A stretch of 64,000 nt of DNA from Mayamaea pseudoterrestris (lineage: Eukaryota; Bacillariophyta; Bacillariophyceae; Sellaphorales; Sellaphoraceae). The position numbers and the translations under genes were made by a program. Shown here piece by piece: positions 4,301 through 49,600 of this stretch; position 1 is the first letter of the stretch; each line of letters begins with the position of its first letter. Where the stretch lies: NCBI GenBank assembly GCA_027923505.1, contig BROI01000028.1, positions 186,001-250,000 of the forward strand. Direction: 5' to 3'. The notes under the pieces were generated by a model. That model did not search any database, was not told the origin of the DNA, and saw only the letters and a list, made by a program, of their open reading frames with translations.

Positions 4301-4425
4301 TAGGGGCGATGAATACGTCAAACAGCGAAAGTGGCGACGAAGAAGTAGATGCGGCGACACAGAAATCAACAGCTGGAATTGGCCGAAGCTTGTACGACGG
4401 TGACAACGGCAATGATACCGACTAA
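1313..4425 (+). CDS. TIMELESS: TIMELESS/Tof1-like replication fork protection protein
   Basis: Two exons, 1313-1779 and 1878-4425, joined across a GT-AG intron (GTAAGT donor) that splits a GAG codon; 1004 residues. The first in-frame ATG is 1313, in a good context (AACATGG). The N-terminal region (about residues 40-300) matches the TIMELESS domain, including DCLNWLQDLQRALRRDED and the hallmark RHSRFGGTLVV near residue 216. A helical middle part follows. The last 250 residues are acidic with basic clusters (KKLKKRRMIKKKR), as in Tof1/Swi1/TIMELESS tails. In the known family, this protein with Tipin/Csm3 travels with the replisome, stabilises paused forks and supports checkpoint signalling and cohesion. 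I see no C-terminal PARP1-binding region. The identification is strong; function is inferred from the family. Confidence 0.9.
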
Positions 4426-4475
4426 TTTAGTGCTATATGCATGGCGCAATGACTCAACTTATCATTATATATTTA

Positions 4476-5714: not shown

Positions 5715-5844
5715 TAGTTTTACTTGCTTCTACTAGTGCTGTCGCGTAGATCTGTATCAATTCACTTGCAGGATATGATAGCAGCGTGGGCTTTCTCGCT
5801 GCTGGCTTTTTGAAAAACCATGGCGATGAGTGTGAGCGTATTAT

Positions 5845-5853
5845 GTCGCAGTG
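5845..5853 (+). promoter_or_regulatory. Recurrent motif GTCGCAGTG
   Basis: Variant copy of the recurrent GTCGCAGYG motif, in the 291-bp divergent spacer between the unknown gene ending at 5714 and the large gene starting at 6006. It lies 153 bp upstream of the latter. The role is inferred. Confidence 0.3.
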
Positions 5854-6005
5854 TGACAATAGCGCGAATGAATGCGAGTCTTAATTGCGCGCCAGTCGTC
5901 GGAACGATGCGCGCATCACCATGGCGGAGCAAAAATCGTAGCCGTTCCATTCCGTCTTTTCACAGCAACTGCCTACCCTGATACATTCAGCAGCAATTTG
6001 TAATA

Positions 6006-9000
6006 ATGGATCGCAAGCCTCCTGCCGATGCAACGATAGAACCCCAGCGCAAAAAGCCGCGACGAGTGGGGGTGATTGCCCTTGAAGACATCAAAACGGT
6101 GATCCCAGCTTCGCAACTTCCATGGAACAATCGTGATATAGAGCCTGTTGGTGGCCTGCGCATTCCGTCACAGGGAATCGCTCTTCCGTTTGACATTGAT
6201 GAGTCGGATCCTATTTTGCAGAACGCCATCAGTGAAACTGCTGGGGCGACAGAAACCGCTGCCTCTGCGAACCCAGAAAGGACGGACGCGGCGAGTCGCG
6301 TGGCAGCGACGAACATTGGACTAACTGACGGGACGGCTTCTTCGTCTGGTGACAAATCCCAGCTGCCCACGGATAAAACTAGTGATCAAAACTCTATCAA
6401 CGCACACGACAATTCGCAGTGGTCGGACGAGATCTACGAAACTTTTCCAATCACCATTGCAGCGAAAGGATCACTGTCGGGAACTCTTGGTCTATATGAC
6501 GCAACTCCCGACATGATCAAAAGATTCAAATGCCATTCGAATCAAAATATTTGCAAGGTGACTGGAATGACACCCGACGGCATTGGAACTGCCAGCGGCT
6601 TACGAGTGGGAGATTTTTTCGTCAAGCGAATAGATGCTGCCACCGTCGCTTTGGAGGACTATGAAAGTGTTTTCGATCGACTCAAATCGGCGGAACGACC
6701 ATTGACGCTTTTGATTGCGCGCTTGCGAAGCCAAAGTTCTAAGGAACTTGCATCGACAGTGTCTGCGCAACCGCAAGCAGCTGCAGGGGATGCGTCTACA
6801 ACAAATGCACTGGAGTCTGCGCCAATCGAGGCGCCCAGCCAAGAAACACTGGCACAACCAACAACGAAGGAACAAACTGCTGCGGCCAGTTCTGGCAAGG
6901 ATGAGTCGGATGAGCTGAACACCTCGTCAACTCGTAGTGAAAGAACTGCTGTTGCAGCCTGTGACAAGCCATCCTTGCCAAGTGGTGACAATAGTGCTCC
7001 GTCGGCGAAAGGGGTGGAAGATTTGGAATGGGAGACAATGTTTCAGAGGTTCTGTAAAGTAGGGGAAGGCACTACGGAGTTAAAAGCTGGCATTGAAACA
7101 GATCAAGCACTTGCCGCGTGGATAGTTCAACAGCGATCACTGTCTGAGCATGGTAATGGCCAGTTAAGTAAAGAGAGAATTAGACAACTAGAGTCCAACG
7201 GGTTAGCGTTTGGCCGACCCGCGGTATCAGGTCCAGATTCAAGCTCCGGGGCAACAAGCGAACCGTGCGACACTGTTGTCGCCGATAAACGACTAATCGT
7301 TATGAACAACGCCCCACCTACAGTTACGAAACGCTCAATGCAAGTACCAACGCCTCGTAGCACAGGCGTCGTTGCAAACCAAGACAAGGGCGCACCCACT
7401 GCTGACTGGCTCGACATGTTCCATGCCTTGGTGGCTTATAAAGAGAAACATGGCACGTTTGTTGTACCAAATAACGTGGTTCATTGTGGCAAAAACCTGT
7501 CATTTTGGCTTCAAACACAACGCCGCCTTTACAAGAACAAATTTCGAAATACGAAACCTTTTCTATCGCAGCAAAAGATCGACTTATTTCGTTCCATATC
7601 GCTTGATCTAGACCCGTTGGGAAGGCTTTCGAATCAAGACAACGTGCCCGGTGGGACGAATGCAAACACGGAGCCTCCATCCGTCAATCTTGGCTCGGAA
7701 CGCGTGGAATTGGAGCTGACAAGGGCAAGCAGGAACGCAGAGAAAATGACGACCCGAGTTTTGTCGCAGGAGTCCGAGAACGACTCCGTGACTGCGGCGT
7801 CCGGACGCCCTGCTCTGGCTGACAGTGGACCTGAAACCGAATCTGCAAGACAAACGCAAGGCCATTTTTCCGCGCATGAACCGCCATCAGCTTCTATAGC
7901 AGTGATGAACGATGTGGTGGTGAATGATAGACTTTCGCATGGTCTGCCTGTTACCGCGGGCGATGTTTTGCCTACCACACCGGTGTGCGAGGCTGCGGAG
8001 AGAGCACACAAAGAACGATGTCTGTTAGAGAGTCGCGTCATGTCATGGCTTGATCGTCGAATTTGTGCCGCCGAAGAGAGTGCATACATGGACGAACAAA
8101 ACGTAGACATCACCCTTGCAGAAAAAAACGAGCGACGCACTGCCTTCGTGCAAGAGAATTTTCTAAAAGACAACGTTTCTTCTCCGATTAGTCAGTCTGA
8201 TTGCCTCCAGTTTGCATCCGAAGAGCGAAAATACTTGGAGGAAGTCAGTCTGGAAATTGAACAAGCTGCTGCAATTGCAAACAACATGTATACACAAATG
8301 ACATTAACGGATACGGCGAATACGGCGACGGACACCAGATTGGAAGTTCGCAACAATCAGCTCAAGTGTCATAGCCCAACCAATATTGCAAAGAAGCAAT
8401 TCAAAATGAAAGCTTTTTTGCCTTCCTTCCAAGTGCTCAACGGAATGAATAAACCGCTTTGGACCTTCGATGACATCGACAAGATTGCTCGTTCCGTCGA
8501 AGCTGCACCAAATATGAAGCTGCAAGGTGCCCTTACCGTTAAAGAATGCAAAGATGATGATTCCACTATCTGCCTAGAATTAATTGGATCGAAAGAAGTT
8601 AGTGAACAGATCATGTCGGCGATTGGAAATGTCCTTGGAAGACGTTGTCGCGCCCACGAAAAATGTGGGGCTGTTATAGGCGTTGACTCGCTGGTAACTG
8701 ACATTGATTGGACCAATAAAGATTTAAGATTGGGTAACCCGGCGTTTGTCAAAGAGACATATAAGGCGCCGCCGTCGTTGAATATAGTCGCTGCGGACAG
8801 GAGTCGAGAGGCACCACTTAAAGGTGTCAGTCCAAAAGTGGTTTCGTACACGCATTTTGCCAAAAAAGTTAAGGACGCTATTGATATCGAATGGAAGCAG
8901 TCGAAGATTGCATCGACTTTTGTATCTGGCCGCATGTGGGCCCGACACAAGAGGATGTTTGGTTTTCTCTGCGATGATGCCTGTAAATGTGTGTTTAGTT

Positions 9001-16621: not shown

Positions 16622-17755
16622 TTATTGCTCGACTGGGTCTCTGTCAGCAACGGCTGCTACAAGCGCGACCAAGTCCAGTTTTGCTGGTATGCCTGGTCGA
16701 TATAACAGCACGGTATGGCCTACCGTTTGAGCAACATGCGCTTGCAATTCTTTGGCTATTCGTTCTCCCAGTCGCTGGACCAACTTCTTCCTCTTGACTG
16801 CCTTGTTCAGCTGAAGCAAGACCAGCTCCTGGCTCCAGAGAACAGAGTCAACATGCTCCATCCATTTTGGCGGCAATTCCAGCGAGTCGACGGCTTGTTC
16901 TTGCTCATCTTGAGCAACATCCACGTCGACCGACGATGCACCCCATGTCACCTTGGTCATGCTTCCATTTTGCTTCTTGCGAGCTGCCAGTGATCTCAGC
17001 GCTGATCGCATCGCTCCATTCACATGCTCATAGCCGGCAATTTCGGGACGAGGAGTAATGCGTTTGACAAAGTTGGTTACCAAGTCGGAACATGCTTTTT
17101 GTAGAGCGCCTTCAGCCATGACAACAGGAATGCCTGCATTTTCCAAAAGCTTGACGCCTCCGCCATCGACGCGTGGATTGGGATCGCGGAATCCAATCAC
17201 GACGCGACTTGGTTTTGCCAATACCAGGGACGCCGCGCAAGGAGGAGTCTTTCCGTGGTGACAGCATGGTTCCAATGTAACGTAGGCAGTCACCATGGGA
17301 GTCTCGTCGTTGCCGACCAACAAGCAGTCTTGAAACATTGTTTGCGGGCCCATCTCTTCTGCATATTTTCGAGTAAACTCGTCTGCCACTTTCAAAAGAG
17401 CATCATCATCATTTCTATTTACCACTCCCTTTGCCAAAGCGACTCCATCTGGAACATGCTGCGCTGCCTGAAGCAAGGCAAAGACTTCGGCGTGCGGATA
17501 TCCAGCTCGCGGATGAAAGCCTTGTCCAATGACTTCCTTGGTATCATCCCTCACCAAAACACAGCCGACTGCAGGATTTGGAAACGTATGACCCAATCCA
17601 TGTTTTGCACAGTCAATCGCTAGCTTGAGAAAACGTTCGTCGTCGTCGGATGTGAGTGCTGAGCGAGCAATGAGCGATGATGATTGTGGAAGCTGCGGAA
17701 CGAATGCAGTAGAAAAACGAACGCAGGAAGCGAATAGAATAATTTGGTAGCGCAT
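16622..17755 (-). CDS. Plastid riboflavin-biosynthesis deaminase (RibD N-domain) with CRM/YhbY-like tail
   Basis: 377 residues. I chose ATG 17755 because it opens a signal peptide followed by STAFVPQ, the plastid-type cleavage motif; the frame is open further upstream but only from a GTG. The deaminase domain (about residues 38-225) has the zinc site H88-A-E90 and C164...C173 in EPCCHHGKTPPC. It should deaminate diaminohydroxyribosylaminopyrimidine phosphate, the second step of riboflavin synthesis. No RibD reductase domain follows. Instead, residues of roughly 262-372 end in ELQAHVAQTVGHTVLLYRPG, which matches the end of the CRM/YhbY RNA-binding fold. This looks like a fusion, or at least an unexpected tail. 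Plants also split the deaminase and reductase functions. Confidence 0.85.
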   Translation of the reverse strand: MRYQIILFASCVRFSTAFVPQLPQSSSLIARSALTSDDDERFLKLAIDCAKHGLGHTFPNPAVGCVLVRDDTKEVIGQGFHPRAGYPHAEVFALLQAAQHVPDGVALAKGVVNRNDDDALLKVADEFTRKYAEEMGPQTMFQDCLLVGNDETPMVTAYVTLEPCCHHGKTPPCAASLVLAKPSRVVIGFRDPNPRVDGGGVKLLENAGIPVVMAEGALQKACSDLVTNFVKRITPRPEIAGYEHVNGAMRSALRSLAARKKQNGSMTKVTWGASSVDVDVAQDEQEQAVDSLELPPKWMEHVDSVLWSQELVLLQLNKAVKRKKLVQRLGERIAKELQAHVAQTVGHTVLLYRPGIPAKLDLVALVAAVADRDPVEQ

Positions 17756-17879
17756 ATCTAGTCGTTTGATTGTAGTGACAGCGAGTCTGGCAAGCATCCC
17801 AATGTGGGCCAGCTCCAATGCAAGCACTTTGATGTATTATGGATGACCATCGCACGGTGAACGAATCCATCAAACAAGA

Positions 17880-30427: not shown

Positions 30428-32344
30428 CTACACCATTGCAACCTCAGATGAGCCTTCACCAAGTAAGTAATATGTACATTTCTGGTGCAAGTGCTCGCGA
30501 AGAATTGGCTTGGTGAGAAATTCGGTCACACCAGCCTCAATGGCATCTTGCTTGCTGGCATCTACGGCGCAAGCAGTCAATGCCAGGATTGGAATATCCA
30601 ACTTGCACGCCCTAAGTATCCTCGTGGCTTGGCAGCCGTCAAGAATAGGCATTGATAGATCCATAAGAATCATGCCAAAGTGAGTCGCATTGGGCAGTTT
30701 GGTGACGTTACGAGACTTCATCATAATGTCGACTGCTTGCTGGCCATCTTCGGCTAGCTCGTATTCGAGATTAAAGTTCGACATCATTCGGGCGAGTAGC
30801 TTCCTGTTGACATGATTGTCGTCAACAATCAAGACTTTATTCACTTGAGAGTCGATATTAAACAAGTCAAGGCTTGGTTTTCGCTTGTGCGCGGCACTAT
30901 TAACGACAGGTTTATCTGCGATGATAAGTCGGCCATACGCTGTATCGAACGAAGCGTCTAACAAGGATGTCGACTCCTTCACAGCCTCTCTGGGACGGTC
31001 TTCTATTGCAACAGTTGCTTGTGTCTTGCAGAGTGCTGCCGGGGAAAATGTGGTCTGGTCTGCTCCTACTTCAAGGCTTTCTTTAAAATGCAATGTCTGA
31101 AGCTCTGGAAGGACATGAAGTTGGATGTAAATTGTGAATTTGCTCCCGATGGCTTCCGTGCTTGCGACATGGATGGTACCACCCATCTTTCGAGCAAGCT
31201 TGGATAAAATCGCCAAGCCCAATCCAGTGCCACCATGCACCCGATATTCTGTCAGCTTCGACCAAGAGTATGGGACAAAGATTCGTTCAAGAAGGCCGTG
31301 CGATATACCACAACCCGTGTCACTGACTTCAATTTTCAACACACAAACATTCGCCGCTTCCACCGAGGTGCCGCTCGTCCCTTCTTCCGCGCTGAGAAGT
31401 CGCAAGGCGGACTCGTCGTCATGCGTACTGGCAAATGTTGTTTCCGAAGAGTCCGTGGGCTTGTCACCGTCGAAGACCAGCTTGTTCACGCCTTTGTCGG
31501 CATTCGTGTTGATCCAATTCTTCTTGAGCGCTTCGTCGAAGCACACCATCGAAGCGGTAAACTCAATAACGCCTTCATCGGTGAACTTTGCTGCGTTAGA
31601 CAGCAAGTTGTATGCAATTTGAAGGATTCGCGCACTGTCTCCAAGCGCGACACTTGGAACGTTTGGGGCGATATGGCACTTGTATTGAACGCTGGGCTTT
31701 TGTCGTAACTGCATCTCCGTACTAGTACCGACCGACTCGAGCAGCTCTCGTAGATCAAACTCTTTCTCTTCGAGTTCTAGTCTCCCTGACTCGAGCTTGC
31801 TAATGTCAAGAACGTCGTTGACGAGTCTGACCATTAGGTGTGTCGACTGTTGGATGCTCGCTAGAGCGCGCTCTTGGTTCGGCAACAAATGCTCGTCCTC
31901 GAGGAACGCGCAAAAGCTAGTGACGGCGAACAAGGGATTACGAATCTCATGACACAGGAACGCCATGAAAGTGACCAATTTGCGCCTCGACTCCTCACTT
32001 TCTTCATTTAGCCGGCGTAGCTCCTGGATTCCTGCATCAAGTGAGCTCATTAGGTTTGGAACAAGTGGAACGAGATAGCAAGCTGTTGCCAGTGATATGA
32101 AGGCGGTAAACCAATTGATGATGAAAAATGCGTTCTGATTTGAAAATCCGAGACAGCGCATAAGATGCCCTGTGCCGCACAGGAAGATGAAGAGTGCAAA
32201 AAGGATCAGCAAGACCAGAATCTTGACCGGCATTGATGTGAGACGCGGATATCGATAAAGAGAAATCAATAACTGGATAGGTATCGAGAAGTATGCCACG
32301 GTTATAATCATGTCATCGACTCGCATTCCTCGCATTGATGCCAT
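30428..32344 (-). CDS. Hybrid histidine kinase with ethylene-receptor-type membrane domain
   Basis: 638 residues, single exon, ATG 32344. Three membrane segments (about 11-30, 39-66, 72-97) match the ethylene-binding domain: D11...AY18-FSIP and LC56-G-T-G-H60. They align with ETR1 Asp25, Tyr32 and the copper-ligating Cys65/His69. A coiled linker leads to the HisKA domain (phospho-His H132 in CHEIRNP) and an ATPase domain with NLLSNAAKF, VSDTGCGIS and GGTGLGLAI. A receiver follows with VDDN, phospho-acceptor D562 in LMDLSMP, then LTA and TKP. Every catalytic residue for a phosphorelay is present. There is no GAF domain, unlike plant receptors. An upstream exon adding the very N-terminus cannot be excluded. 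Ethylene sensing is an inference from the binding-site residues. Confidence 0.9.
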   Translation of the reverse strand: MASMRGMRVDDMIITVAYFSIPIQLLISLYRYPRLTSMPVKILVLLILFALFIFLCGTGHLMRCLGFSNQNAFFIINWFTAFISLATACYLVPLVPNLMSSLDAGIQELRRLNEESEESRRKLVTFMAFLCHEIRNPLFAVTSFCAFLEDEHLLPNQERALASIQQSTHLMVRLVNDVLDISKLESGRLELEEKEFDLRELLESVGTSTEMQLRQKPSVQYKCHIAPNVPSVALGDSARILQIAYNLLSNAAKFTDEGVIEFTASMVCFDEALKKNWINTNADKGVNKLVFDGDKPTDSSETTFASTHDDESALRLLSAEEGTSGTSVEAANVCVLKIEVSDTGCGISHGLLERIFVPYSWSKLTEYRVHGGTGLGLAILSKLARKMGGTIHVASTEAIGSKFTIYIQLHVLPELQTLHFKESLEVGADQTTFSPAALCKTQATVAIEDRPREAVKESTSLLDASFDTAYGRLIIADKPVVNSAAHKRKPSLDLFNIDSQVNKVLIVDDNHVNRKLLARMMSNFNLEYELAEDGQQAVDIMMKSRNVTKLPNATHFGMILMDLSMPILDGCQATRILRACKLDIPILALTACAVDASKQDAIEAGVTEFLTKPILREHLHQKCTYYLLGEGSSEVAMV

Positions 32345-33063: not shown

Positions 33064-34231
33064 CTACCCCTGCTCCGGCCAAGCCGTATCTAGAACATGC
33101 AGCAACAAATCTCGGAAATTGCCTTTCACTTCAGATCGGACGCGATCGTGAACAGTTTTGCCATAAAGCTCAATATGAGCTGCCATGACATCTCCCATGA
33201 CCTCCTGCAAGCGAATGAGCGTGCACGTCAATAAGAGTTCATCCGTCCCAATGCCCTTGCATGCCGTCTTGATCAAGTTAGCCATGGCCTCGTACGGCTT
33301 AAGTTTCATCTCAATCAAGTGCACCGTTGCGTCTGCCAGGTTACCGTTAAGCTCCTTGGCCATTGCCTTGGCCAAAGTGTAGCCATACTTCTCCGAGTAG
33401 GCCCGGTCAATCGCCTGCAAGTGTTCCTTGAGCGACTTGGTCAAGATTTTAAATATTCCACGCTCCTCCGTACCCCATTTGCCTTGGCCCTTTTGATAAA
33501 TTTCCTCCGCATCTTCAATTGCCTTCTCCTTGGTGTGATGCTGCGGATCAAATGGATCTTGACCACCTTGAAGGGCACTAAAGACGAGAACCTCCATGTT
33601 ACCAGTGAGCTCGCTCGCTAGTACCTTGCCCTGTAATAAAGTCCGACAATCATGAGACACGAGTAAATCGCGCAGTATATTGCCAAAGATCAAAACTTAC
33701 GAGGTCTTTGCTGTACATGTCATAGTACCTGTTCAAAGAAATGATGAAATAAGTAGTATGAGCAGCAGTTAACGCAAACTGCTACAACACAATCATGACA
33801 CATGCAGCGAGCAAACCAACTCACGTCTTTTTCAAGAGCTCCAGCTCCTCATTCGTCCGTCCAACAAGAACGCTCCAAACAATATTAACATTGGCTCCAA
33901 CGCCCGCCGTGGCCTTGCGAATCATTTTGCATTCGGCCTTGTGCAAAGGCAAGGCGAGAAATCGCAACGCCAGTCCAAAGTTTCCACTAAATTCCTTCTT
34001 CATCAATTCCTCCAAATCTTGTTTATGAAGCTCCTTGTAGCGAATGTACAATTTGTATCGATCCGTCGCGTTGTGCTTCGCCAAGGCGTCGACAACCTTT
34101 TGCTTGTTGGCGCCCCATCCTTTGGTGGCATCGTGAATTTGCTGGCAGCAGTCGTCAATCTCTGGTCCGAATCCGTGATCAGGACTGAGATCTTGGCGCA
34201 TGACCATTTCGGGGTAGAGAGGAATCGGCAT
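33064..34231 (-). CDS. Annexin (four repeats)
   Basis: Three exons: 34231-33825, a 28-nt microexon 33728-33701, and 33630-33064; introns 96 and 70 nt, all GT-AG; 333 residues. The microexon encodes YYDMYSKDL within repeat two and restores the frame exactly. Four annexin repeats of about 70 residues are recognisable. Repeat four has the type-II Ca2+ loop KGIGTDE, repeat three has GKWGTEE, and repeats one and two have altered loops (KGWGANK, AGVGANV). Annexins bind acidic membranes in a Ca2+-dependent way, in vesicle traffic or membrane repair. There is no signal peptide. Confidence 0.92.
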
Positions 34232-34782
34232 GATACAGTCGTTGTGGATGCCAAACTAGTGATTGTAATTAAGAACGAGTCGAGAGTCCAGAGCTTTGTG
34301 TTAGCGCTAATCGTCGGCGATGAGGCAAGGAGCTGAGGTTGATTGATATATCCAACGATTGGCTTATCGTCAAGCAGTCCGCTTGGAAGATCTTATGCTT
34401 TGGTTGTAATGGCAAAAAGCAACGACCCTGCTCAAGGGTCAACGGGTCAATGATCTCGAAACAAGATCCAGATCCACGAATTTCTATTTCCGTGTCGCAC
34501 TGTTTCCACTTTTGTATCGCACTGGTGTTGAACGATCGTCATGCAAATCTGGCGCGGCAGCCAAACGAAGGAACGGCAAACGCCTTGCGCTGCCTTTGGT
34601 ATTCATCACTTTGTTTCAAGTACAAATCGGTTGCTACATTGCGTTTGTGTGCATAGTAGGCAAACACCGTATCTTGCATATAGTGCGATTAAGTAACCAG
34701 TCTAAGGAGTGATTTAGCAGAAGCTAAGCGATTCCTCTGCGCATCCAAAAGTCCTTCTCCATTGGCACTTTCTGAGGGCATC
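34232..34782. other. Divergent intergenic region (annexin / ether-lipid multienzyme)
   Basis: 551 bp containing both promoters. The multienzyme frame extends to a TTG at 34762, but the first ATG is 34783. Other short frames look random. No motif was identified. Confidence 0.5.
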
Positions 34783-37700
34783 ATGACATCGAACGCTGAT
34801 GCTGATGCCGACAAGGATCTTGATGCACCAACTATCCCATCCACCATGCAAGATCTTTTTGAGCAAGTGGTGGGTTGGATACGTGATACGCCAGTCACCG
34901 CAAACATGCAGCCATCCACCGACACCAAGCTCCGCATGTACGGCCTCTACAAGCACGTTCACGACGGTCCCTGCGTTGGCGAACAGCCTTCCGTGTTGCG
35001 CGTCGAGGCGCTCTACAAGTACAAGGCCTACAGGGCGTGCGAAATGTTGAAAAAGGAGGAAGCCATGGAGCAGTACGTTCAAGTGGCTGGTGCGCAAAAC
35101 AATTGGCTCGGGCATAAGATTTTAACGCACTATCAGTCTTGGTGCGCGGCGCACGGCAAGTATGCCACGTCGGCTGTCATACCAATCGCTTCAGACTCGA
35201 ATTCAATTGCAACCAAAATGCTCTCATTGCTTGGGATTCGTCCACTAGTGCCGCGGGGTCAACTCGATATATCCGTTTCCGACTTGCTCTTTGCCATTTC
35301 GTCGTGCTGTTCCCTCTCTGGGTCGTTGCGCTCCAAGGAGCAAGCCGTTCAAGACTTGTTCGCAAGCAGCAGCAGTGATACGCACCACGCAGTGGTGGGC
35401 TTGTCGGCTCGAACATTGATGGATCTATACTTTTGCGCCAAAAAGTATCCAAAGGGATCGCAACTCATCATGAGTCCGGCAATCAACGTTCCTGGTGTCG
35501 TCGCCGTGTTGAAGCACCACGACTTGGAGATTGTGGCGATTGACCTTCCAATGGACGCCAACGGACAAACGCGCATTTCTGTTGACTGCGATGCGATTGA
35601 AAGCGCCGTCACGGCCAAGACGGTGGCAATCATGGTGGTGCATCCGTTTGGCATGCCGTCGGCGAGCGACAAGGAAATGAGTCGACTGCGGAAACTCGCA
35701 AATGAGCAGAATCTAAGCTTGATGGAGGATTGTGCCGAATGCTTTACGGGATTATCAAAAGATGCCTTTCAGCCGAGCACTCTGGCCGACGTTAATTTTT
35801 ATTCGTTTGGATGGATCAAGACGGCAACCGCTCTTGGAGGTGGCGTGGCTCTCGTGAGCGATGACAAGATCGCAAAAGACATGAACAGGATACAGCATTC
35901 ATCATATCCGCTACAATCTACATGGGTCATTTTATGGAGAACTGTGAAGGGATTGTGGATCCATCTCATGACTGCATCGCCCGTTTTGTTCGCGCTGTTT
36001 GCATATGCTCTTAACTTGGTTGGCCTTGACCTGGACGCCGCCGTGTACGCAGTGATTCGAGGATTCTCGTCGCCGTCTCCCGCCGAAAGGCTACGTCAGA
36101 TACGCCAACGGCCATGCGCTGCCTTGCTATCCATGCTGAACAGACGGTTAAAGCAATCGCGCAACAATGTCGTTCCGTCTGTGGAAGCGAGGAAACGACG
36201 TTGCGAAACGGTTTTAAAATCATTGCGTACCAGCAATCCTGACACTGTCGGTCATCTGGATGACAGTTCAACCTTTTGGTTGTTTCCTATAATATCTAAG
36301 AATCCAAAACGCTTTTGTCAGGCGCTTCGGAAAAATGGATACGATGTGACGAGGGGCATGTCCCAGTTAAAGTGTGTGGATGACGGCCAGTCATGTCCTC
36401 GAGCGTCAGAATTGATGCAAAGTGCCGTATATTTACCCATTTCCAGTCGCAGCATGAGCGATTCGCAGCTTTGTCGTCTGACAGAATTGATACAAGCAGC
36501 AGAACCCGAAACGTCGAAGCCTCCGCTCAAAGCGTACAACACTTGGAGAGTCAGCTGGAAAACTGCTGTATTCGTCGGCGCAATGCTGGTGATGCTGTCA
36601 TCCCTACGATATACAATGCTCTTCTTTATAAATGTCTTCATACTGCTCGGCCTTCTTGCACTTGCAACTTCTGTGATACTCCGATGGAGCGTTTCTGATT
36701 GGTACCTAGACCATTCATCTAATTTTGTCAAGTATAGCCACTTGCTGACGGGTCATGACGAGCGCAAGTCGGACATTTCCAGTCGAAATGTGTTGAAAGC
36801 GATGGATGTGCTTAAAGTCCCAGCTAACTCATTGGGCGAAACGAGAAAAGTGTTTCTTACCGGATCGACTGGCTTTGTCGGGTCCAACTTACTACGCAAT
36901 CTTTTGCTGAATCGCAAGGAACTCTTGATCGAGTCCGTCACTCTCCTGTGTAGGTCAAAGCGTGGCCAATCGGCGAGGTCACGGGTAGACAAGCTCTTGA
37001 GTGAGCCTCAATTTTCCTTTTTGTCTGACGACGAGAAACTGTCGGCTGTTCAAGTTGTTGAAGGAGAAGTGTCAACGCCTAATGTCGGGTTGAGCGAGAC
37101 GGATTACAATGCAATAATAGAAGACTCAAAGTTTACCCACGTCATTCACTGTGCCGCCTCGGTCAGCTTTACTCAAGAGCTTCCCGATGCCGCACGGACG
37201 AATATCGCTTCTTCACTGCATCTTCAGAAGTTGACCGCTATGATAACGTCGGGCTCTGCTATTTTTGTCCACGTAAGCACTGCTTTTGTCCACGGCGGTG
37301 ATACCGGAACCGCGGCCGAGCCCTTGCCTGAAAAGCTTTACTCGCTCGGAAAGTACGACCCAGCGCGACTTTACTCCTCTATGCTTGGATCCCAATTTTA
37401 CGCTGCAAAGGCAATGCATGAACTCGGTTTTCACAATTCATATACTTTTAGCAAGTGCGTTTGCGAGCATCTACTATCAAGAAATTCTTGTGTACGAACA
37501 ATCATCATTCGACCTAGTATTGTTGGACCGGCCGTTGAATTGCCTTGGGAGGGATGGGCTGGTGCGAAGCCTTCCACGATTGTTGCTGCTGCTTGCTTAT
37601 ATATGGCCTACCAATGGAATCTCTGGTCGTTTGGCAATCACAGAGTTCCTTGCATTCCTGTCGACATTTTAAGTTCGTTCATTGTTGCCAAAGTTTTTGC

Positions 37701-40700
37701 AGTGGAACACATTGAGGACGCGTCGGAAATTCTTGTACCGTCGAGCGCGGATAGCGATTCGGCTAGATCTAGCGCAATCAGCTTCGAAAAGATAAAGCGA
37801 GCTGATAGCACTGCGTCGTCATCAAGTGACTCTTGGCCTGATTCAGCCGCGTCTCAGCATTCCCTTGATATATACAATGCAGCCTGGAATGGTGCATCGC
37901 CCGAGTCGTCGTCTTTTACATGGATTGACTACGCTGCGGCAATATGTCAAGTTGGTGCTATCACCGGCTATTTCTCCAGACCAACTGCCTTCGTCAGTCT
38001 GGGCTTTGCAAAAAGGATTGTTCCCTGGGCATCATTTTCTATAAATTCCTTCCGTCGGCTTCATGCTCTTGTTGTTGATATACCTTTCAATACGATAAAA
38101 AAGATGGGAAACTTTTTTGGATATGATACGTCGCTCATGAAAAAGTTGCACCCGTTTCTGGAGTTGCCACTTCTCTTCTATCCGTTTATGAATTCCAAAT
38201 TTTATTTTGATTCTGACTTGACGGCGCCAGTCGAATTAAATGGGCAGCGATACATGTTTAGCTGCACTGCCGCGGCTCATCGTTTTATGGTCAATGACAG
38301 AAACAATACGTCGGAAAACTCTGCGAAACCATTTCTAGGTTCAACCGACAAGATTTATTCCTGCCGGATAGCGGGCTCACTTCATCAGCAAACCTGTCCC
38401 GATGCTTGGTGGGCCTTGACGCAGCCCGAAGGCGGCTACTTTACGCGATTTGCAGGATGGATAATAGTCAAGATTTTAAGAGCCACTTGCACCGAAGTAA
38501 CAGTTGATGTGGATTCGTTTCGATCAATAATCACGCATTTGGAAAACGAAGCAGAGCCAATGACGGTCATACTCGCTCCGACGCATCGGTCCTTCATGGA
38601 TTTCATAGTCTTAAGTTATGCTCTATTTGCTCTCCCTGAATTAAAGGTGAAAATCCCTCACATCGCTGCCGCGGACGACTTTGAGAGACTCCCTTACATC
38701 GGGTGGCTGGCGACACGCTTAGGGGCCTTTTTTGTTCGAAGAGGGAGAAAGCATAAAGACCCAAAGTTGCGGGATAACCTGTCGTCAATTACGAATTCGG
38801 CTACGCATCATAGCCCTTTCATAGAGGTTTTTATCGAAGGGACAAGAAGTAGAGACCGACGATTTCATCGTCCGAAAACTGGTTTCTTGCGCTGCATTCA
38901 GAATCAAGGCCCGATTGTGGTAGCTCCAATTACCATCAATTACGAGCGTGTTCCTGACCAGCATGCCTTGGCTGCTGAGGCGACAGGAGGACTAAACAAG
39001 GGTTTGAACGTGTTTTCTCTAATCAACTGGCTTCGTCGAGTATCGGGTGGAAAAGTGCGTCTGGGGCGCATTCATATTGCCGCGTGCCAGCCTATTTCTG
39101 CTACGGACGGTAGCAACCAGCTTGATGCGCGCATTTTAGCCGATATGATTCAGTGCAGACAACAAGAGCAAGTTTGTATATCGGACTATCATATCAAAGC
39201 CGCATCCAGCTTGCTAAAATTAAAAGTTGAGACTGTGGAGGATGCAATGCGACGTGTGGACTGCAAATTCTGGCCTAAGACAAATGCTGGATCGTCGCTG
39301 CTAGACGTTCCTACTGACGAAACTGAGCTTCTGACTGTCTTACTACAAGCAAGTCCAACTCTGTCCAAGCTCTTTGTCGAGTCGCATCCAAATTGGTCAA
39401 ATTGGCTGAACCGTTTGAACGAAACAACTTTAGACGAATCACTGCGCGGAGTGGACTCGGTGCGTCAAATTATTGACAGCTTAGTGCCCATGTTCGACGA
39501 GGCCGATCGATGTACCGGAGAGGCTCTACGAATATTAACGGAAAAAGGCTTTTCGAACCCGAAACCTGAGCATGCTTTGCAGAAAACGCTGACATTTAGC
39601 AACAAGTTGCCTCATGGACTCATCCGAGCTTCATTGGCAATGAAATTACATGGGTCTTTGGTCACGTACGATGAGACCATGCCTTATTTCAGCGACGGAG
39701 CAGTAGCGAAACAAAGAATACCAAACTCGGACGAATCGCTTGGCTTCTGGGGCTTTCACGATTCATCTTTTGTCGTGCAAACGGATAGCCAAGGTTCCCC
39801 GTTCGTAACCATGCAAGGCAAACGATACACTCTTAGCAACGCTCGTATGAGGAAGATACTGCCGTTTATACAGGAGGAGATGAATGTCAAGGTAGATCTT
39901 TTCCGTGAAGCGTTTCTTGACAATGAAAAGATTGCATTTCCTGGCTGCTGCATCGTCGCGGAAGACCTTGAGCTCCTAAAACCAACCTGTTTGTCGGTTA
40001 CATATGAAGAAAGAGTTCGTCATGGAACCGGTCATTGCCAAGAGGACGTGTTCGCAATCCGCAGCGGCCACTTACCTCGTATTCCGGATCTTGTTGTATG
40101 GCCAAAAACTCAGGCGGAAGTCCAAAGCATTGTTCGCCTTGCCAAGGAAAAGTCTTGGTGCCTTATACCGTTCGGCGGAGGAACAAACGTTTCGCTTGCG
40201 ACTCGTTGTCCATCCCTTGAAGTTGAACCTCGTCCTATTGTGTCCGTCGACATGAGAAAAATGTCCAAGATACTCTGGGTCGACGAAGAGAATGGCCTAG
40301 CTCGCGTTGAGGCCGGTATTACTGGGCGTCATTTGGTGGAGCAAATGGCACAGCGGGGGTATACAATTGGGCACGAACCGGATAGTATTGAATTCAGCAC
40401 TCTTGGTGGTTGGGTTGCTACAAAAGCCAGCGGTATGAAGCGTAACAAGTACGGCAACATTGAAGATATCGTCAAGGCTGTTCGTGTGATTGGCCCGAAC
40501 GGTGTCTTGCAACATGGCAGTGATGGAGAAGTTGTCTGGGGACGTGAAGCAAGCGGCATGGATCTTTGCTCGGTCATGTTTGGATCAGAAGGGTGTCTCG
40601 GAATTATAACGAGCGCCACGCTACGAATTTGGCCAGAGCCTGAAGTGAAAGACTACGATGGCTTCATCTTTCCAGACTTTGAAATGGGTGTTCGCTTCGC

Positions 40701-41490
40701 TCGGGGCGTTTCCAAGCTCGGGACTCGAATGCCTGCCTCGGTGCGCGTGCTCGACAACGAGCACTTTCGACTGGGACAGGCTCTTCGTCCAGCTTCCAGA
40801 TCGCCGTTTGAGACCATTTTAAAGCCAATATTGCAGTCGCTACTGCACAAGTTCGGTAATTTTGAATCAAAGAAAGTCACTTGTGCTACCATTGGATATG
40901 AAGGCTCGAGGAACGAAGTTCGATTGCAACAGACGTCTCTCGCCAAGCTGGCAAAGGAGCACGGTGGCATTCGTCTTGGAAGTCAGGTTGGCAAGGACGG
41001 TTACAATTTGACGTTTATGATTGCATACCTTCGAGACTTTGCCATGACTTACCACTTTCTTGGCGAGTCATTCGAAACGTTTGTGCCGTGGTCCAACGTT
41101 CAGCAAGTCGTGGAGCGTACCAAAGCTCGCATTTTTAAGGAGCATGCCGATCGATGTCTTCCAGGCAAGCCTTTTGTCGGCGCCCGCGTGACACAGCTTT
41201 ACCACGAAGGCGCTTGCATATACTTTTACTTTTGCATGAACTTTGAGAATGTGCCTGATCCCAGCCACGTTTATTCTGAAATTGAGCACGCGGCTCGTCG
41301 TGAAATCATGGACAATGGTGGATCTGTCAGCCACCATCATGGAATAGGCAAGGTCCGCGCCGAGTATCTCAAGGAAATCAATTCTTCAGCCTTTATGGAT
41401 AGTCTGCAAATGTTTAAAAAAGGCGTTGATCCATTGAACATATTCGGGGCGCGCAATAGTGCATTTGCGACCGACAAGCCCGAGGAGTAA
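34783..41490 (+). CDS. Ether-lipid multienzyme: ACBP + PLP aminotransferase-like + FAR + DHAP acyltransferase + alkyl-DHAP synthase
   Basis: Intronless, 2235 residues from the first ATG (34783). Domains in order: acyl-CoA-binding protein (about 22-109, LRMYGLYKHVHDGPC, EEAMEQYV). DegT/DnrJ-type PLP aminotransferase-like (about 157-573; PLP-ring D316, Schiff-base lysine K346 in SFGWIKTATALGGG) with a hydrophobic insertion. Membrane segments (about 592-640). Fatty acyl-CoA reductase (about 689-1010; TGSTGFVG, catalytic Y887-x3-K891). GNPAT-like acyltransferase (about 1218-1513; H1268-x4-D1273, EGTRSR). FAD-dependent AGPS (about 1650-2230; FGGGTNVS, HEPDSIEFSTLGGW, GACIYFYF, triple His 2184-2186). 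FAR makes fatty alcohol from acyl-CoA, GNPAT acylates DHAP, and AGPS swaps the acyl for the alcohol, giving alkyl-DHAP. I see no PTS1 and no clear PTS2, although animal GNPAT and AGPS are peroxisomal. The role of the aminotransferase-like domain is unknown. Confidence 0.93.
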   Translation: MTSNADADADKDLDAPTIPSTMQDLFEQVVGWIRDTPVTANMQPSTDTKLRMYGLYKHVHDGPCVGEQPSVLRVEALYKYKAYRACEMLKKEEAMEQYVQVAGAQNNWLGHKILTHYQSWCAAHGKYATSAVIPIASDSNSIATKMLSLLGIRPLVPRGQLDISVSDLLFAISSCCSLSGSLRSKEQAVQDLFASSSSDTHHAVVGLSARTLMDLYFCAKKYPKGSQLIMSPAINVPGVVAVLKHHDLEIVAIDLPMDANGQTRISVDCDAIESAVTAKTVAIMVVHPFGMPSASDKEMSRLRKLANEQNLSLMEDCAECFTGLSKDAFQPSTLADVNFYSFGWIKTATALGGGVALVSDDKIAKDMNRIQHSSYPLQSTWVILWRTVKGLWIHLMTASPVLFALFAYALNLVGLDLDAAVYAVIRGFSSPSPAERLRQIRQRPCAALLSMLNRRLKQSRNNVVPSVEARKRRCETVLKSLRTSNPDTVGHLDDSSTFWLFPIISKNPKRFCQALRKNGYDVTRGMSQLKCVDDGQSCPRASELMQSAVYLPISSRSMSDSQLCRLTELIQAAEPETSKPPLKAYNTWRVSWKTAVFVGAMLVMLSSLRYTMLFFINVFILLGLLALATSVILRWSVSDWYLDHSSNFVKYSHLLTGHDERKSDISSRNVLKAMDVLKVPANSLGETRKVFLTGSTGFVGSNLLRNLLLNRKELLIESVTLLCRSKRGQSARSRVDKLLSEPQFSFLSDDEKLSAVQVVEGEVSTPNVGLSETDYNAIIEDSKFTHVIHCAASVSFTQELPDAARTNIASSLHLQKLTAMITSGSAIFVHVSTAFVHGGDTGTAAEPLPEKLYSLGKYDPARLYSSMLGSQFYAAKAMHELGFHNSYTFSKCVCEHLLSRNSCVRTIIIRPSIVGPAVELPWEGWAGAKPSTIVAAACLYMAYQWNLWSFGNHRVPCIPVDILSSFIVAKVFAVEHIEDASEILVPSSADSDSARSSAISFEKIKRADSTASSSSDSWPDSAASQHSLDIYNAAWNGASPESSSFTWIDYAAAICQVGAITGYFSRPTAFVSLGFAKRIVPWASFSINSFRRLHALVVDIPFNTIKKMGNFFGYDTSLMKKLHPFLELPLLFYPFMNSKFYFDSDLTAPVELNGQRYMFSCTAAAHRFMVNDRNNTSENSAKPFLGSTDKIYSCRIAGSLHQQTCPDAWWALTQPEGGYFTRFAGWIIVKILRATCTEVTVDVDSFRSIITHLENEAEPMTVILAPTHRSFMDFIVLSYALFALPELKVKIPHIAAADDFERLPYIGWLATRLGAFFVRRGRKHKDPKLRDNLSSITNSATHHSPFIEVFIEGTRSRDRRFHRPKTGFLRCIQNQGPIVVAPITINYERVPDQHALAAEATGGLNKGLNVFSLINWLRRVSGGKVRLGRIHIAACQPISATDGSNQLDARILADMIQCRQQEQVCISDYHIKAASSLLKLKVETVEDAMRRVDCKFWPKTNAGSSLLDVPTDETELLTVLLQASPTLSKLFVESHPNWSNWLNRLNETTLDESLRGVDSVRQIIDSLVPMFDEADRCTGEALRILTEKGFSNPKPEHALQKTLTFSNKLPHGLIRASLAMKLHGSLVTYDETMPYFSDGAVAKQRIPNSDESLGFWGFHDSSFVVQTDSQGSPFVTMQGKRYTLSNARMRKILPFIQEEMNVKVDLFREAFLDNEKIAFPGCCIVAEDLELLKPTCLSVTYEERVRHGTGHCQEDVFAIRSGHLPRIPDLVVWPKTQAEVQSIVRLAKEKSWCLIPFGGGTNVSLATRCPSLEVEPRPIVSVDMRKMSKILWVDEENGLARVEAGITGRHLVEQMAQRGYTIGHEPDSIEFSTLGGWVATKASGMKRNKYGNIEDIVKAVRVIGPNGVLQHGSDGEVVWGREASGMDLCSVMFGSEGCLGIITSATLRIWPEPEVKDYDGFIFPDFEMGVRFARGVSKLGTRMPASVRVLDNEHFRLGQALRPASRSPFETILKPILQSLLHKFGNFESKKVTCATIGYEGSRNEVRLQQTSLAKLAKEHGGIRLGSQVGKDGYNLTFMIAYLRDFAMTYHFLGESFETFVPWSNVQQVVERTKARIFKEHADRCLPGKPFVGARVTQLYHEGACIYFYFCMNFENVPDPSHVYSEIEHAARREIMDNGGSVSHHHGIGKVRAEYLKEINSSAFMDSLQMFKKGVDPLNIFGARNSAFATDKPEE

Positions 41491-42674: not shown

Positions 42675-42906
42675 GATGAAAATGTGCGAAAGGGGATGCA
42701 CGAGAAACGCGATAGACGAACGTCGCACCGTTATTTCCCCGGTGTTGCGATGCGACATTCTTTTGCACGATTGATGAACCAACGACGAGGGCGGTCGTCG
42801 CTCACATGGATAAGTGCTGCTACCGGGGTTTCATACTAATGTAACGATAGCCATCACCTTAAGCTGTAATCGTTACTACACTTCTTATTCGTTGATCAAT
42901 GATATT

Positions 42907-44613
42907 ATGAGACCTGACACGAGCTGCATTGCCGTCAGCAAGACGGCGCGAGACGCGCTGCAGGCGAAGTGGTCGGCCGTTTCCGTCGGCAAGTACAACG
43001 TGGCATCCACAAACCATGACCAACAAGTATACCATCAAATGATTCATGCCATGGCGCATCACGCTAAAGCAACGAGGCCGCAGACTCCATTGGTGAATGC
43101 GGGATACGCCATGCGAGTCACTGTCATGCTCCACAACATGCAAAGTTACTTGCGATTTCATCGCGCCTTGAGCGGCTCGCTCCAACATGTGCAGATTGTC
43201 ATACTTGGCGCGGGCTTGGACGTTGCTGGCTTTTGGGCATTGTCGCAGCTGGAACATGATGATGATCAGGTGCATTTAGTGGAAATTGACGTGCACTCGG
43301 TGTGGCAGGCGAAGCGTGACGCAGTGACGTCGCTCAATTGGGTGGTTCCTTCCAACGAAGCAGACAACGCTCACGTTTGGCACGGCGTGCCGCAGGTCGG
43401 AAAAGGCCAGTGTCGATACAGTCTTGTTCATGCTGACCTTCGTGACACGTCAAAGTTGCAGGAAACTCTCTCATTCTTGCAACTTGACAATCCGACGCTT
43501 GTTTGCGCGGAGCTCGTCCTGGCGTACCTTGGCGAGCAACGTTGCGACGACCTACTGCAATGGTGCTCCAGCAACCTTTGTCGACACCCCATGAGCTGTC
43601 TCATTGCCTTGGAACCGCTCGGTAGTCAGACGCAGGAGTCAGTCTTGAGTGGCTATCAGTACAACTACGTGTCGCAATTCACGGCGAAACTGAACCGAGG
43701 CCTAGCTGATAACGGATCACACAAGGGACCGCTGTTTGATCCGTTAGGTGCGAATCGCGCGTCTGTCATTAGAAGAATGCACGAGAACGGGTGGACAAGC
43801 TCTAGGATTCTGACATGTGGTGATGCAGCCGCGGAAGCGGTTCAGTTTGGAGCTGACTTGATCTGCCGCGAAGTGTTTGACGAACATGCGGCGCTCCATC
43901 TTCATCTTCAGTCCTACGTGATGGTGCTAGGATTCAAGCACGAGACGGAACACTTACTCCAGCGATACATGAATGCCAAGAATATAAACGAACGTCCACT
44001 TGGTCGCTTATTGAAGGATGGTTCAAGGATTTGGTTAACCGAAATTGAACGCCAGGATGAAGCGGAACTACGCAGCCAGTTCTCGTCAACTTATCAACGT
44101 TATTTTGATACATACCCAGCAATCAAAAAGATGGTAAAGACGGCGTTGAGAAAAGACCTTGCCTCATCGTCAGTCGATGGCGATGATACTTCCAAAATCC
44201 ACTTGCACTATCGCAGCATTGATGGACACTTTCTGGTTGCGGTACAGTATCCTCCAATGAGCAATATAAACTCAATGACTCGGATACTGATTGGAGGTAT
44301 TGGCTGGCGCAAATTGTCACCAAAGGAGCAAGCCGCCCGCGGATTCCAGTGGACTAGCTATGAAATTCATCGCCTCGTCGTGGCACCGCACTCGCGGCGC
44401 CTGGGCGTTGCTCGTTGCTTGTTGGAGCGCGCGGAATCGTTGATTCAACATGGCACTCCAGCCTATCAACTAATTGCGACTACACCTGTATTCCAAGTGG
44501 ATGCCACTGCATTCTATCGAGGCAATGGATTCATGCTCTTGTCGGAAGCTGAAATGGGAAACATCACGCTACAAACATACTCAAAAATTACTAACATAGA
44601 GCAAGGTAGCTAA
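42907..44613 (+). CDS. Fusion of leucine carboxyl methyltransferase-like and GNAT acetyltransferase-like domains
   Basis: 568 residues from ATG 42907; the frame is open upstream only to a GTG. The N-terminal part (about 15-330) follows the PPM/LCMT family: KYN..ASTNHDQQV, PLVNAGYAMRV (the PLINRGY motif), SAM-binding VILGAGLDVAGF, and LVCAELVLAYL. In that family LCMT1 methylates the C-terminal Leu of PP2A, and LCMT2/TYW4 acts in wybutosine synthesis. The C-terminal part (about 350-560) has a GNAT core, YEIHRLVVAPHSRRLGVARCLL, followed by AFYRGNGF. I know of no such standard fusion. Which substrates are used is open. Confidence 0.75.
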   Translation: MRPDTSCIAVSKTARDALQAKWSAVSVGKYNVASTNHDQQVYHQMIHAMAHHAKATRPQTPLVNAGYAMRVTVMLHNMQSYLRFHRALSGSLQHVQIVILGAGLDVAGFWALSQLEHDDDQVHLVEIDVHSVWQAKRDAVTSLNWVVPSNEADNAHVWHGVPQVGKGQCRYSLVHADLRDTSKLQETLSFLQLDNPTLVCAELVLAYLGEQRCDDLLQWCSSNLCRHPMSCLIALEPLGSQTQESVLSGYQYNYVSQFTAKLNRGLADNGSHKGPLFDPLGANRASVIRRMHENGWTSSRILTCGDAAAEAVQFGADLICREVFDEHAALHLHLQSYVMVLGFKHETEHLLQRYMNAKNINERPLGRLLKDGSRIWLTEIERQDEAELRSQFSSTYQRYFDTYPAIKKMVKTALRKDLASSSVDGDDTSKIHLHYRSIDGHFLVAVQYPPMSNINSMTRILIGGIGWRKLSPKEQAARGFQWTSYEIHRLVVAPHSRRLGVARCLLERAESLIQHGTPAYQLIATTPVFQVDATAFYRGNGFMLLSEAEMGNITLQTYSKITNIEQGS

Positions 44614-46173: not shown

Positions 46174-46685
46174 GTTGCAGTTTCTCTTTGTATCAAGTGA
46201 GAACAAGCCTGGCTGAGTTAGGTAACAAGCCGATGGACGAGAAATGAACGAAAAGGATCAGCACGTTCGAAGATCCTTGCAGCGTCGAGCAGCGGATGAC
46301 AATCTTCTAAATCGAAGCGTGTGAATCGAGTCGTGGAGAAATGGATGGTTCCCATCGCCTGTCACAAATTGTCGCAGCGCCACTCATTCAGAACCGGTAC
46401 GATGCTAGAACAATTCGAATGACGCCACCGACATCACGCAAAATGAAGGCGATCGAAGAGCGCGACCATGAGTCAGTGCATTAATACACACAAAACGCTT
46501 GCAACTCCTTGTGATTGGACTGCAAATAGCCTACCGCAATCGCCACCAAACCTTGTTGTGGATAGTTTAGAAAGGATTATAGAAGCTCAGCTAGTGGACA
46601 AGTAGCAACAGTGAACCAACGAGTAGTAGAAGCCAGCATTTCCAATCAGAACAATCGCGCCTTCGCTTTTTCTGTTTCAAGCATC
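46174..46685. promoter_or_regulatory. Divergent promoter region (APR / ABCC) with recurrent motif
   Basis: 512 bp. It contains GTCACAAATTGTCGCAGCG at 46361-46379, nearly identical to the copy at 25729-25747. This is 188 bp upstream of the APR start and 307 bp upstream of the ABCC start. An upstream frame joined to ABCC starts at GTG 46611 and is not counted as coding. Confidence 0.4.
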
Positions 46686-49600
46686 ATGACGGAACCAGTG
46701 AGCAGCGACAGCCACCACTCCGCCGAGATGATGGAAGTTTCTCTCAGAGACGACAAGTTCTTGGAACATGAATCAGCCAAGAAGGAACCACAATTGCAGC
46801 TGGAGCGATCATGCTGTGGCTTGCGCAGCAAACCAATTCCAAAGTCTGCCGCTGAACTTGGCGTATGGGAAGCATCGCTGGAGGACCGGAGTAACTGTAT
46901 ATCAAGATGGACGCTCGACTACTTGACGCCGTTGCTCAAGCTTGGCTCGCACAAGGTACTTGATGCAGGGGACATGGGAGTGCCCTCCAAGCAGGATTCT
47001 GCGGAACGCGCATATGCGGAAACGTTACGAATCTTCAAGGCGCAGTGCGTCAAGTGCAAAGCCAAGAATGAAGAGATTTTGGCCAAGCGCGAGGCAGTGC
47101 TAGCCAAATGCCAGACGGAGGAGGCGCGTCTTAAAGTCAAGCCGGCGAAGTTGCATGAACCATCGATAGCCTTTGCGCTAGCCAAGGCGTTTGGTCTGGG
47201 GCAGCTGGTGGTTGCTGTTCTTTACTACATTGTTGGAGCGATTCTCGGATTTGCTCCAGTCATTATCTTGAATGATCTTGTCAAGTTTTTCGAGTCTGGC
47301 CTTTCCATCAACGAGTATGATGGCTACGTGCATCCGTGGGCCGAGGTTGCCGCGCTGGCAGTGGTCCCAGTCATTATTACCTTGCTGCAGACGCGCCATT
47401 CAGTCATCATGTCACACTGCGCCGTCTTTGTGCGAACGGCCGTTAGCACCATGCTGTATCGCAAGGCGCTGCGTGTTTCGGCGGCGGCGCGAGCCAAGAC
47501 TAGCACTGGTCAAGTCATTAATATGATGTCGAACGATACTGCTCAGCTGCAGCGATTCTTGCAATTTGCCGGTATGATTTTGGTGGCACCAATCCAGATT
47601 ATCATTGCGTTGGTTCTCATCTTTCAGCAAGTGGGTAATGCGACGTGGGTGGGAGTAGGTTTCATGGTGATGTTGATTCCTGTAAATACCTTTATCTTTT
47701 CCATCATTTCCAAGCAACGCCGCGCAGTGCTCAAGTATTCGGACATGCGCGTTCGAACAATGAACGAAGTACTAGCAGGGATTCGCATTATCAAGTTCTA
47801 TGCATGGGAGCGTCCCTTTGGGAAAGAAATTGGACGGTTGCGTGGCGAGGAGCTCAAAGCTCTCACCAAGCTTGCTTACACTGTCGCGATTGGATTCTCA
47901 CTCATTTTGATGTCGGCGCCGCTGATCCAACCGATTCTGGTGTTTCTGACTTATGTTGGAATTCAAAGCGAATCGCTGACTGCTGCTACAGCATTTACTA
48001 CTGGTACGTGTTAATCGACAGTTGTTGCAGCCCCCCTGGACTTGATCTAACGCTTTATGCTTTTTCAATCGTAGTCGCCTTGTTCAACATTATGAGAATG
48101 CCATTCGCATTTCTTCCGATGGGTTTTCTTCAGTACATTCAATCGCGTATTTCATTGCGCCGACTGGAACGATACTTGGATCTACCGGAGCTCGAGTCTT
48201 ATGTTGAACACAGCGGTCCGCCGGACGACATGGACGATGCTGCCTCCAAGGAAGGCAGTGTTGCTATTCGGCATGGTAGTTTCAGCTGGATTAACCCTGA
48301 CAGTGAACCCATTCGCGCCGTGAATGAGCCAGATGTATCTCGCAAGGCGCGCAAGTCGAAGAAAAGCGTCCGATTTTCTGGTGTTGACCACGACATGAAA
48401 GTTAGCATTCATAGCTCTGTAAGCCAGGCCAGTCAAGCGAGCGAAAGTCCAAAAACAGCAACCATTACGCTGCAAGACATATCCTGCACGATAAATTCAG
48501 GCGAACTTGTTGCTGTTGTCGGTCCTGTTGGCTCCGGAAAATCTAGTTTTCTGTCGGCTATTTTGGGCGAAATGGAACCTATCAACAACTCAAAGGTTTA
48601 CATTTCGCGCCCTGCTGATGCGGCCCTTGGATATGTCTCATATTGTGCGCAAACGCCATGGGTCGTTAATGATACGCTGCGTGGTAACATTTTGTTTGGC
48701 CGAGAATACGACGAAGAGCGATACATGTCTGTTGTTGCTGCTTGCGCTTTGGAGGACGATCTTGCTATTCTACCTGCAGGAGACGAGACGGAAATTGGCG
48801 AACGAGGGATCAATCTCAGCGGCGGGCAGAAGGCGAGAGTTAGTCTTGCTCGCGCAATGTATTCCGGAGAAACGCGTATCGTGTTGCTTGACGATCCGCT
48901 GTCGGCTGTTGATGCGCACGTGGGCGAGCACATTTTCCAGCACGCAATATCCGGTCAGCTATGTGCCGGCGTCACTCGCATTCTTGTCACTCACCATGTG
49001 CATTTACTTTCGAGATGTGACAAAGTGATTGTCCTCGACCACGGGCGGATCGCGCACTGCGGAACATATGCAGATTTGGTCGCTCAAGGCGTCGAGTTTG
49101 CCGGCGCCGTCGACGCTTCCAAGGTAAAAGGCGTAACCGAGGATGCAGTAGTGGAGACTGAAAAGGATGTTGGAAAAGATATCAAGAAGGCGGCGGCTCC
49201 GACCATTGACAATTTGGCTGCTCTACAGAAGAACGGCAAAAAATTAGTCAAGGACGAGGAGCGTGAGGTTGGAAGTGTATCAGGCTCTGCATACATCAAA
49301 TATGCACGAGCTGGAGGTGAGTGGAACATTTTCACGTGGAGTTGCTAGTCGAGAGAGATTCTCACTTCGTCCCACTTGCCATTGTAGGATTGTGGATTGC
49401 CGCCGGAGTTGTCGTAATCCAAGGGTTGGGCAGGGTGGCGGAAGTCATGTCGAGTTTTTGGCTAGCGCTATGGGCAAAGCGGAGCCTAGCGGCGCAAGAG
49501 AGTGGCGATCCATTTTCTCGTCAAGAGCAAGACCGCTATCTTGGAATTTATGCTCTGTTTGGTATGTTGGGAATTCTAGGGCTCACAGGTCGCGCATTGC

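Follow-up and report, generated by a model that had tools for sequence, protein, structure and literature searches.

The window, a 64,000-nucleotide stretch of Mayamaea pseudoterrestris DNA, carries an open reading frame of 2235 amino acids plus stop on the forward strand (34783-41490). Translation revealed no internal stop across the 2235 residues and required no intron, in agreement with the single frame claimed by an earlier, sequence-only reading of this DNA. The program-made ORF list holds an alternative TTG start of the same ORF at 34762, and an upstream in-frame stop lies 30 codons 5' of the ATG. Under a simple base-composition model, 2235 open codons would arise by chance with a probability of about 10^-48. 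Codon usage was scored in blocks of 100 codons (the final 35 codons falling outside the blocks), using nine other ORFs of the window as reference. Frame 0 scored above zero in 22 of 22 blocks (range 0.02-0.31). When compared with three other frames, it was best in just 17 of the 22, tied in two and was beaten in three, so that the codon signal is modest.

Directly upstream, on the reverse strand, lies a gene that appears annexin-like by eye and in which short introns seem to interrupt the frames (33064-34231). Further features of the window include a Leucine carboxyl methyltransferase domain fused with a GNAT acetyltransferase domain (42814-44610), an ABC transporter spread across two overlapping frames, perhaps reflecting an intron or frameshift (46611-49345), and, on the reverse strand, a hybrid histidine kinase whose N-terminal membrane domain is ethylene-receptor-like (30431-32344) as well as a Cytidine-deaminase domain followed C-terminally by a CRM (CRS1_YhbY)-like match that stays below cut-off (16625-17827). 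A DUF6824 match also remained below its cut-off.

Domain architecture of the 2235-residue chain

Searching the chain against Pfam returned six families above their cut-offs: ACBP (residues 24-101, 1.9e-16), DegT_DnrJ_EryC1 (200-373, 1.2e-16), NAD_binding_4 (692-966, 1.8e-41), Acyltransferase (1254-1385, 9.7e-21), FAD_binding_4 (1768-1911, 1.4e-36) and FAD-oxidase_C (1953-2222, 1.1e-26). Their order is that of the sequence-only reading, and the five families it had named for a Pfam check (ACBP, DegT, NAD_binding_4, Acyltransferase, FAD_binding_4) are all among them. A seventh family, Epimerase, overlaps the reductase domain, and residues 967-1196 had no Pfam match. The claimed series ACBP-aminotransferase-TM-FAR-GNPAT-AGPS is thus borne out by Pfam matches for each named domain and by an AGPS match of 3.1e-143 to PDB entry 4bby; it reads ACBP, DegT-type aminotransferase, hydrophobic anchor, FAR, GNPAT-type acyltransferase and full-length AGPS.

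The ACBP domain (residues 24-101; 34852-35085, forward strand) scored 60.4 bits against PF00887, with a cut-off of 28.3, and also matched ACB domains in the PDB. It is followed by a DegT/DnrJ/EryC1-type PLP aminotransferase at about residues 165-578 (35275-36516, forward strand), recognized by Pfam and alignment. The PLP lysine K346, together with D316 and H287, is invariant in 15 of 15 aligned sequences, and, as judged from this conservation, the domain keeps its PLP site. Alignments and hydropathy also delineate an insert at about residues 375-440 (35905-36102, forward strand) with a hydrophobic stretch at 391-421, which is helical at low confidence in the structure model and, in the alignments, stands in place of the usual DegT loop (G-N-x-R, then the QAA helix). 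The C-terminal half of the aminotransferase is only weakly related to DegT by hhalign (E 0.12, probability 0.5%) and gave short BLAST matches to two loci (L049, L050); the low-confidence range of the model reaches residue 578. Between aminotransferase and FAR, residues 590-638 (36550-36696, forward strand) form the hydrophobic anchor, modelled as one long helix and containing the strongest hydrophobic stretch of the chain, with weaker ones at 391-421 and 955-975.

FAR occupies residues 690-966 (36850-37680, forward strand; PF07993) and carries TGSTGFVG at 693 and YTFSK at 887-891, and the GNPAT/DHAP-acyltransferase-type domain C-terminal to it (residues 1197-1472; 38371-39198, forward strand; PF01553) carries HRSFMD at 1268 and EGTRSR at 1352. 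The catalytic motifs of these enzymes, TGxxGFxG, YxxxK and HxxxxD, are all kept, and the residues singled out by the sequence-only reading were found where it had placed them (Y887/K891, H1268/D1273 and HHH at 2184-2186). Both domains align colinearly with one 889-aa bacterial FAR-acyltransferase fusion (FARAT; locus L034), with 29% identity over 295 aa for FAR, 35% over 277 aa for the acyltransferase (8e-47) and 30% over the whole alignment, so that the FAR-GNPAT part belongs to the known FARAT type. The acyltransferase also matches GPAT1 (3.2e-14); we infer GNPAT rather than GPAT specificity solely from the bacterial FARAT match. Structure modelling of the FAR-GNPAT part yielded no usable structure (mean pLDDT 31).

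The AGPS domain (residues 1654-2225; 39742-41457, forward strand) comprises the FAD-binding part, R1988, Y2147 and the triple histidine. Besides 4bby, guinea-pig AGPS, the PDB matches included 2uuu, Dictyostelium AGPS (1.2e-80), and the first non-AGPS chain followed at 7.3e-21. R1988 and Y2147 are retained at positions where PDB sequences differ, R being replaced by H in 4bc7 and Y by F in 4bca. Identity reached 41.6% with guinea pig and 32.2% with Dictyostelium, both computed on aligned PDB stretches rather than whole chains, 42.3% (about 42-43%) with the AGPS at L034 and 38.8% with that of a second bacterial locus, L005. As a tree of seven rows supported one of four inner branches and left the diatom sequence unplaced, we make no claim on inheritance versus acquisition and propose no horizontal transfer.

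Related genes in the host genome and in bacteria

Searching the host genome (30.6 Mb, 41 contigs) with the whole chain recovered the fusion itself as the sole match. FAD-oxidase_C matched at three places, namely the fusion, a lactate-dehydrogenase-like ORF and a fragment. We rejected both of the latter as a second AGPS, the ORF having just 22.6% identity to the diatom AGPS domain and the fragment matching that ORF rather than AGPS. No second AGPS was found by this search of the 30.6 Mb, which intron-split genes could escape. NAD_binding_4, a broad family with matches in 14 of 14 control genomes, occurred at seven places, led by the fusion (3.7e-42) and followed at a distance by the next (3.5e-15). 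Comparing the three longest ORFs of each other locus with the FAR region gave weak matches at three of the six (E 3e-5 to 2e-4; sugar epimerases by eye), none at two, and one at E 0.02 in an opposite-strand frame. No second clear FAR was recognized among these six places, again with the proviso that intron-split genes could escape. Likewise, neither the best other DegT place (a 432-aa ORF, L036) nor three weaker ones, compared through ORFs of at least 250 aa, matched the fusion aminotransferase by BLAST.

The silicon-transporter family was represented at ten places in the host genome, nine of them above cut-off (best 2e-197), with matches in one of 14 control genomes and above cut-off in none, which marks the host as a diatom and hence a stramenopile. 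Three tandem matches at G000:C1:2970661-2974680 (L008-L010), each in a 1445-aa open frame, apparently constitute a fused triple transporter.

A search of genome contigs for relatives returned two loci. Of the 395 genomes from the phylum to which G001, a Cyclobacteriaceae MAG, belongs, two had AGPS at E <= 1e-60: G001 itself and G357. In G001, genes named by eye as HMG-CoA-reductase-like and PlsC-like precede AGPS (L005:5985-9707), and no match to FAR or GNPAT turned up when the complete diatom chain was searched against this genome. In G357, L034 holds AGPS, FARAT and an NAD-epimerase-like gene on one strand (549-6070). This AGPS is cut by the contig end, and the 889-aa FARAT starts with TTG 24 bases downstream; neither an ACBP nor an aminotransferase was seen on the 6072-base contig. 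The aminotransferase query matched 59 of 394 genomes of one phylum at E <= 1e-8, the best at 1.0e-11. Plasmid records matched the whole chain (645), the aminotransferase part (91) and the FAR-GNPAT part (31), and no place in the best 30 of 645, 25 of 91 and 25 of 31 records spanned 80% of any query. Viral contigs gave no match in four of four scans, and phages gave two weak DegT-like matches. Among the matches listed for bacterial genomes, plasmids, phages and viral contigs, with neighbours read for L005, L034 and L041, no fused relative was seen.

The gene order of L034 is shared with the M. xanthus operon MXAN_1676-1675-1674, described as AGPS, FARAT and NAD-epimerase (PMC9131029). In both bacteria AGPS adjoins FARAT, resembling the pairing within the fusion; there, however, the proteins are separate and AGPS comes first, whereas in the diatom they form one chain with AGPS last. 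The diatom chain looks as if enzymes of the M. xanthus/L034 type had been linked in the order FARAT-AGPS, preceded by a part made up of ACBP, aminotransferase and anchor.

Comparison with known systems, localization and lipid product

The sequence-only reading had named a FAR-acyltransferase fusion from Dictyostelium. Such a fusion is indeed known there, but the type is wider: FAR and a DHAP/glycerol-type acyltransferase share one chain in both Dictyostelium fatA and Tetrahymena TtFARAT (PMC7375469, PMC13256971), M. xanthus MXAN_1675 is a FAR-acyltransferase fusion (PMC9131029), and Phytophthora Ps131776, with predicted acyltransferase and acyl-reductase domains, is probably a FARAT as well (PMC2705460), extending the type to oomycetes. 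What is new in the diatom chain is therefore the addition of AGPS, ACBP, an aminotransferase and an anchor. Unlike the diatom chain, the FARATs of Dictyostelium, Tetrahymena and Phytophthora are described in the available parts of these sources without AGPS, ACBP or aminotransferase. A C-terminal SKL makes the Dictyostelium protein peroxisomal, and AGPS is a protein of its own there (PMC7375469, in part), whereas the diatom chain ends in DKPEE. M. xanthus ElbD resembles the fusion in being a single multidomain ether-lipid protein with FAR1-like and acyltransferase domains, but its acyltransferase is AGPAT-like and it possesses ACS and ACP domains (PMC9131029), both absent among the nine Pfam families with E <= 0.1 in the diatom chain. 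Animal FAR1, GNPAT and AGPS have homologous domains and catalyse the same three reactions as proposed here (PMC9131029), yet they are three proteins in or on peroxisomes. In a cryptophyte, FAR and AGPS are separate and carry a putative PTS1, the localization of AGPS being inconclusive according to the portion of the source consulted (PMC9244630). Hence, in the organisms compared, FAR, GNPAT and AGPS are separate or partly fused, and the diatom gene appears, from its domain matches, to hold all three. The sequence-only reading had known of no description with AGPS and ACBP added. Our literature search, covering titles and abstract starts of the top-ranked papers with most subscription journals outside it, likewise found no account in which AGPS is joined to FARAT or combined with ACBP and aminotransferase.

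The C-terminal DKPEE of the fusion is no PTS1, a signal that is a feature of the Dictyostelium protein and not a general FARAT requirement, and the PTS2 pattern (R/K)(L/V/I)X5(H/Q)(L/A) had no match over the whole chain. Animal AGPS is a PTS2 cargo with an N-terminal signal. Diatoms are described as importing by PTS1 alone, Pex7 being absent and the PTS2 route lost (PMC3178647, in part). With neither signal in the fusion, we would expect membrane-anchored and perhaps non-peroxisomal synthesis: the chain is likely tethered to the membrane by the hydrophobic segment that separates aminotransferase from FAR, ether lipids are possibly made outside peroxisomes, and the catalytic domains would lie on one membrane side.

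To judge the type of ether lipid, we considered PF10520, which matched at one place in the host genome (L035, G000:C1:1016356-1016871; 5.7e-62). This protein starts with SNAFTPT, which we take to be a plastid-type presequence motif. It has an Arg (CERGF) where PEDS1/CarF has an extra His, a position placed by hand from spacing and the human sequence, with one interval off by one residue. In CarF this extra essential His is H113, and plant proteins usually have Arg there (PMC9131029, in part). We therefore rejected L035 as a PEDS1-type plasmalogen desaturase; with its plastid-type start and the Arg at the PEDS1-specific position, it reads FAD4-like. As it is the sole PF10520 protein found, alkyl (plasmanyl) rather than vinyl ether lipids would be expected. 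To our knowledge, alkyl ether lipids have not been reported from diatoms, and no such report was found among the top-ranked papers. The nearest, in the part available, goes no further than assigning choline-type metabolites to the ether-lipid pathway of KEGG (PMC10856835), and in the accessible text of two others ether lipids appear in reference lists alone (PMC8100218, PMC6723447).

Proposed function and alternatives

Taking domain content, motifs and bacterial relatives together, we consider it probable, with good confidence, that the ORF encodes a multifunctional, membrane-anchored diatom ether-lipid synthase. The ACBP domain would capture long-chain acyl-CoA, FAR would reduce one acyl-CoA with NADPH to a fatty alcohol, and the GNPAT-type domain would transfer another acyl group to DHAP. 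On acyl-DHAP, AGPS would then replace the acyl group with the fatty alcohol, yielding 1-O-alkyl-DHAP, which a separate reductase would convert to alkyl-glycerol-3-phosphate for plasmanyl lipids. Activities, step order, localization and channelling are predictions in this scheme.

Within such a synthase, the ACBP-aminotransferase-anchor part could have lost catalysis or substrate binding and act as a mere scaffold for dimerization and membrane anchoring. Fold-type I enzymes are dimers, the hydrophobic insert replaces the usual DegT loop, the C-terminal half is barely recognizable, and the best relatives in the 394 genomes of one phylum reach merely 1.0e-11, all of which would fit this role. The invariance of K346, D316 and H287 across the 15 aligned sequences would nonetheless be surprising in a pure scaffold, and we rate this reading a serious contender at slightly below even chances. 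An active aminotransferase, in turn, might transaminate C2 of DHAP, acyl-DHAP or alkyl-DHAP, giving an ether lipid with an amino group at sn-2 (serinol-phosphate type) that is later N-acylated. Precedents for the transamination of DHAP are Bradyrhizobium elkanii RtxA (PMC3222319) and Cj1437 (PMC11800397), neither being established as a DegT enzyme in the parts of these sources available; we regard this specific activity as unlikely.

Alternatively, the chain could serve storage or wax lipids, with the FAR alcohol passing into wax esters, the acyltransferase feeding triacylglycerol and AGPS playing a minor part. NAD_binding_4 includes FARs of wax pathways, and the acyltransferase matches GPATs too. 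However, AGPS is nearly full length and keeps all active-site residues checked, and FARAT beside AGPS is the arrangement proposed for bacterial ether lipids (PMC9131029, in part), leaving this reading quite improbable. That neighbouring genes or exons merely share one frame by chance and are transcribed separately is very improbable: the adjacent annexin-like gene seems intron-bearing and the codon signal is modest, but 2235 stop-free codons are not expected by chance, and the regions linking FAR, acyltransferase and AGPS can be aligned with the bacterial FARAT chain.

If the ether-lipid synthase reading is correct, one chain carries all the committed first steps of ether-lipid synthesis. A diatom would then be expected to contain alkyl ether lipids, and there would be a direct test of whether fatty alcohol and acyl-DHAP are channelled when FAR, GNPAT and AGPS are joined. 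Such a synthase would also place a PLP enzyme in the ether-lipid pathway; were C2 transamination to hold, the product would belong to a class of membrane lipids that links glycerolipids with sphingolipids. Finally, given the loss of the PTS2 route in diatoms and the PTS2 import of animal AGPS, the fusion may show how a pathway stayed intact once its route of import had disappeared.
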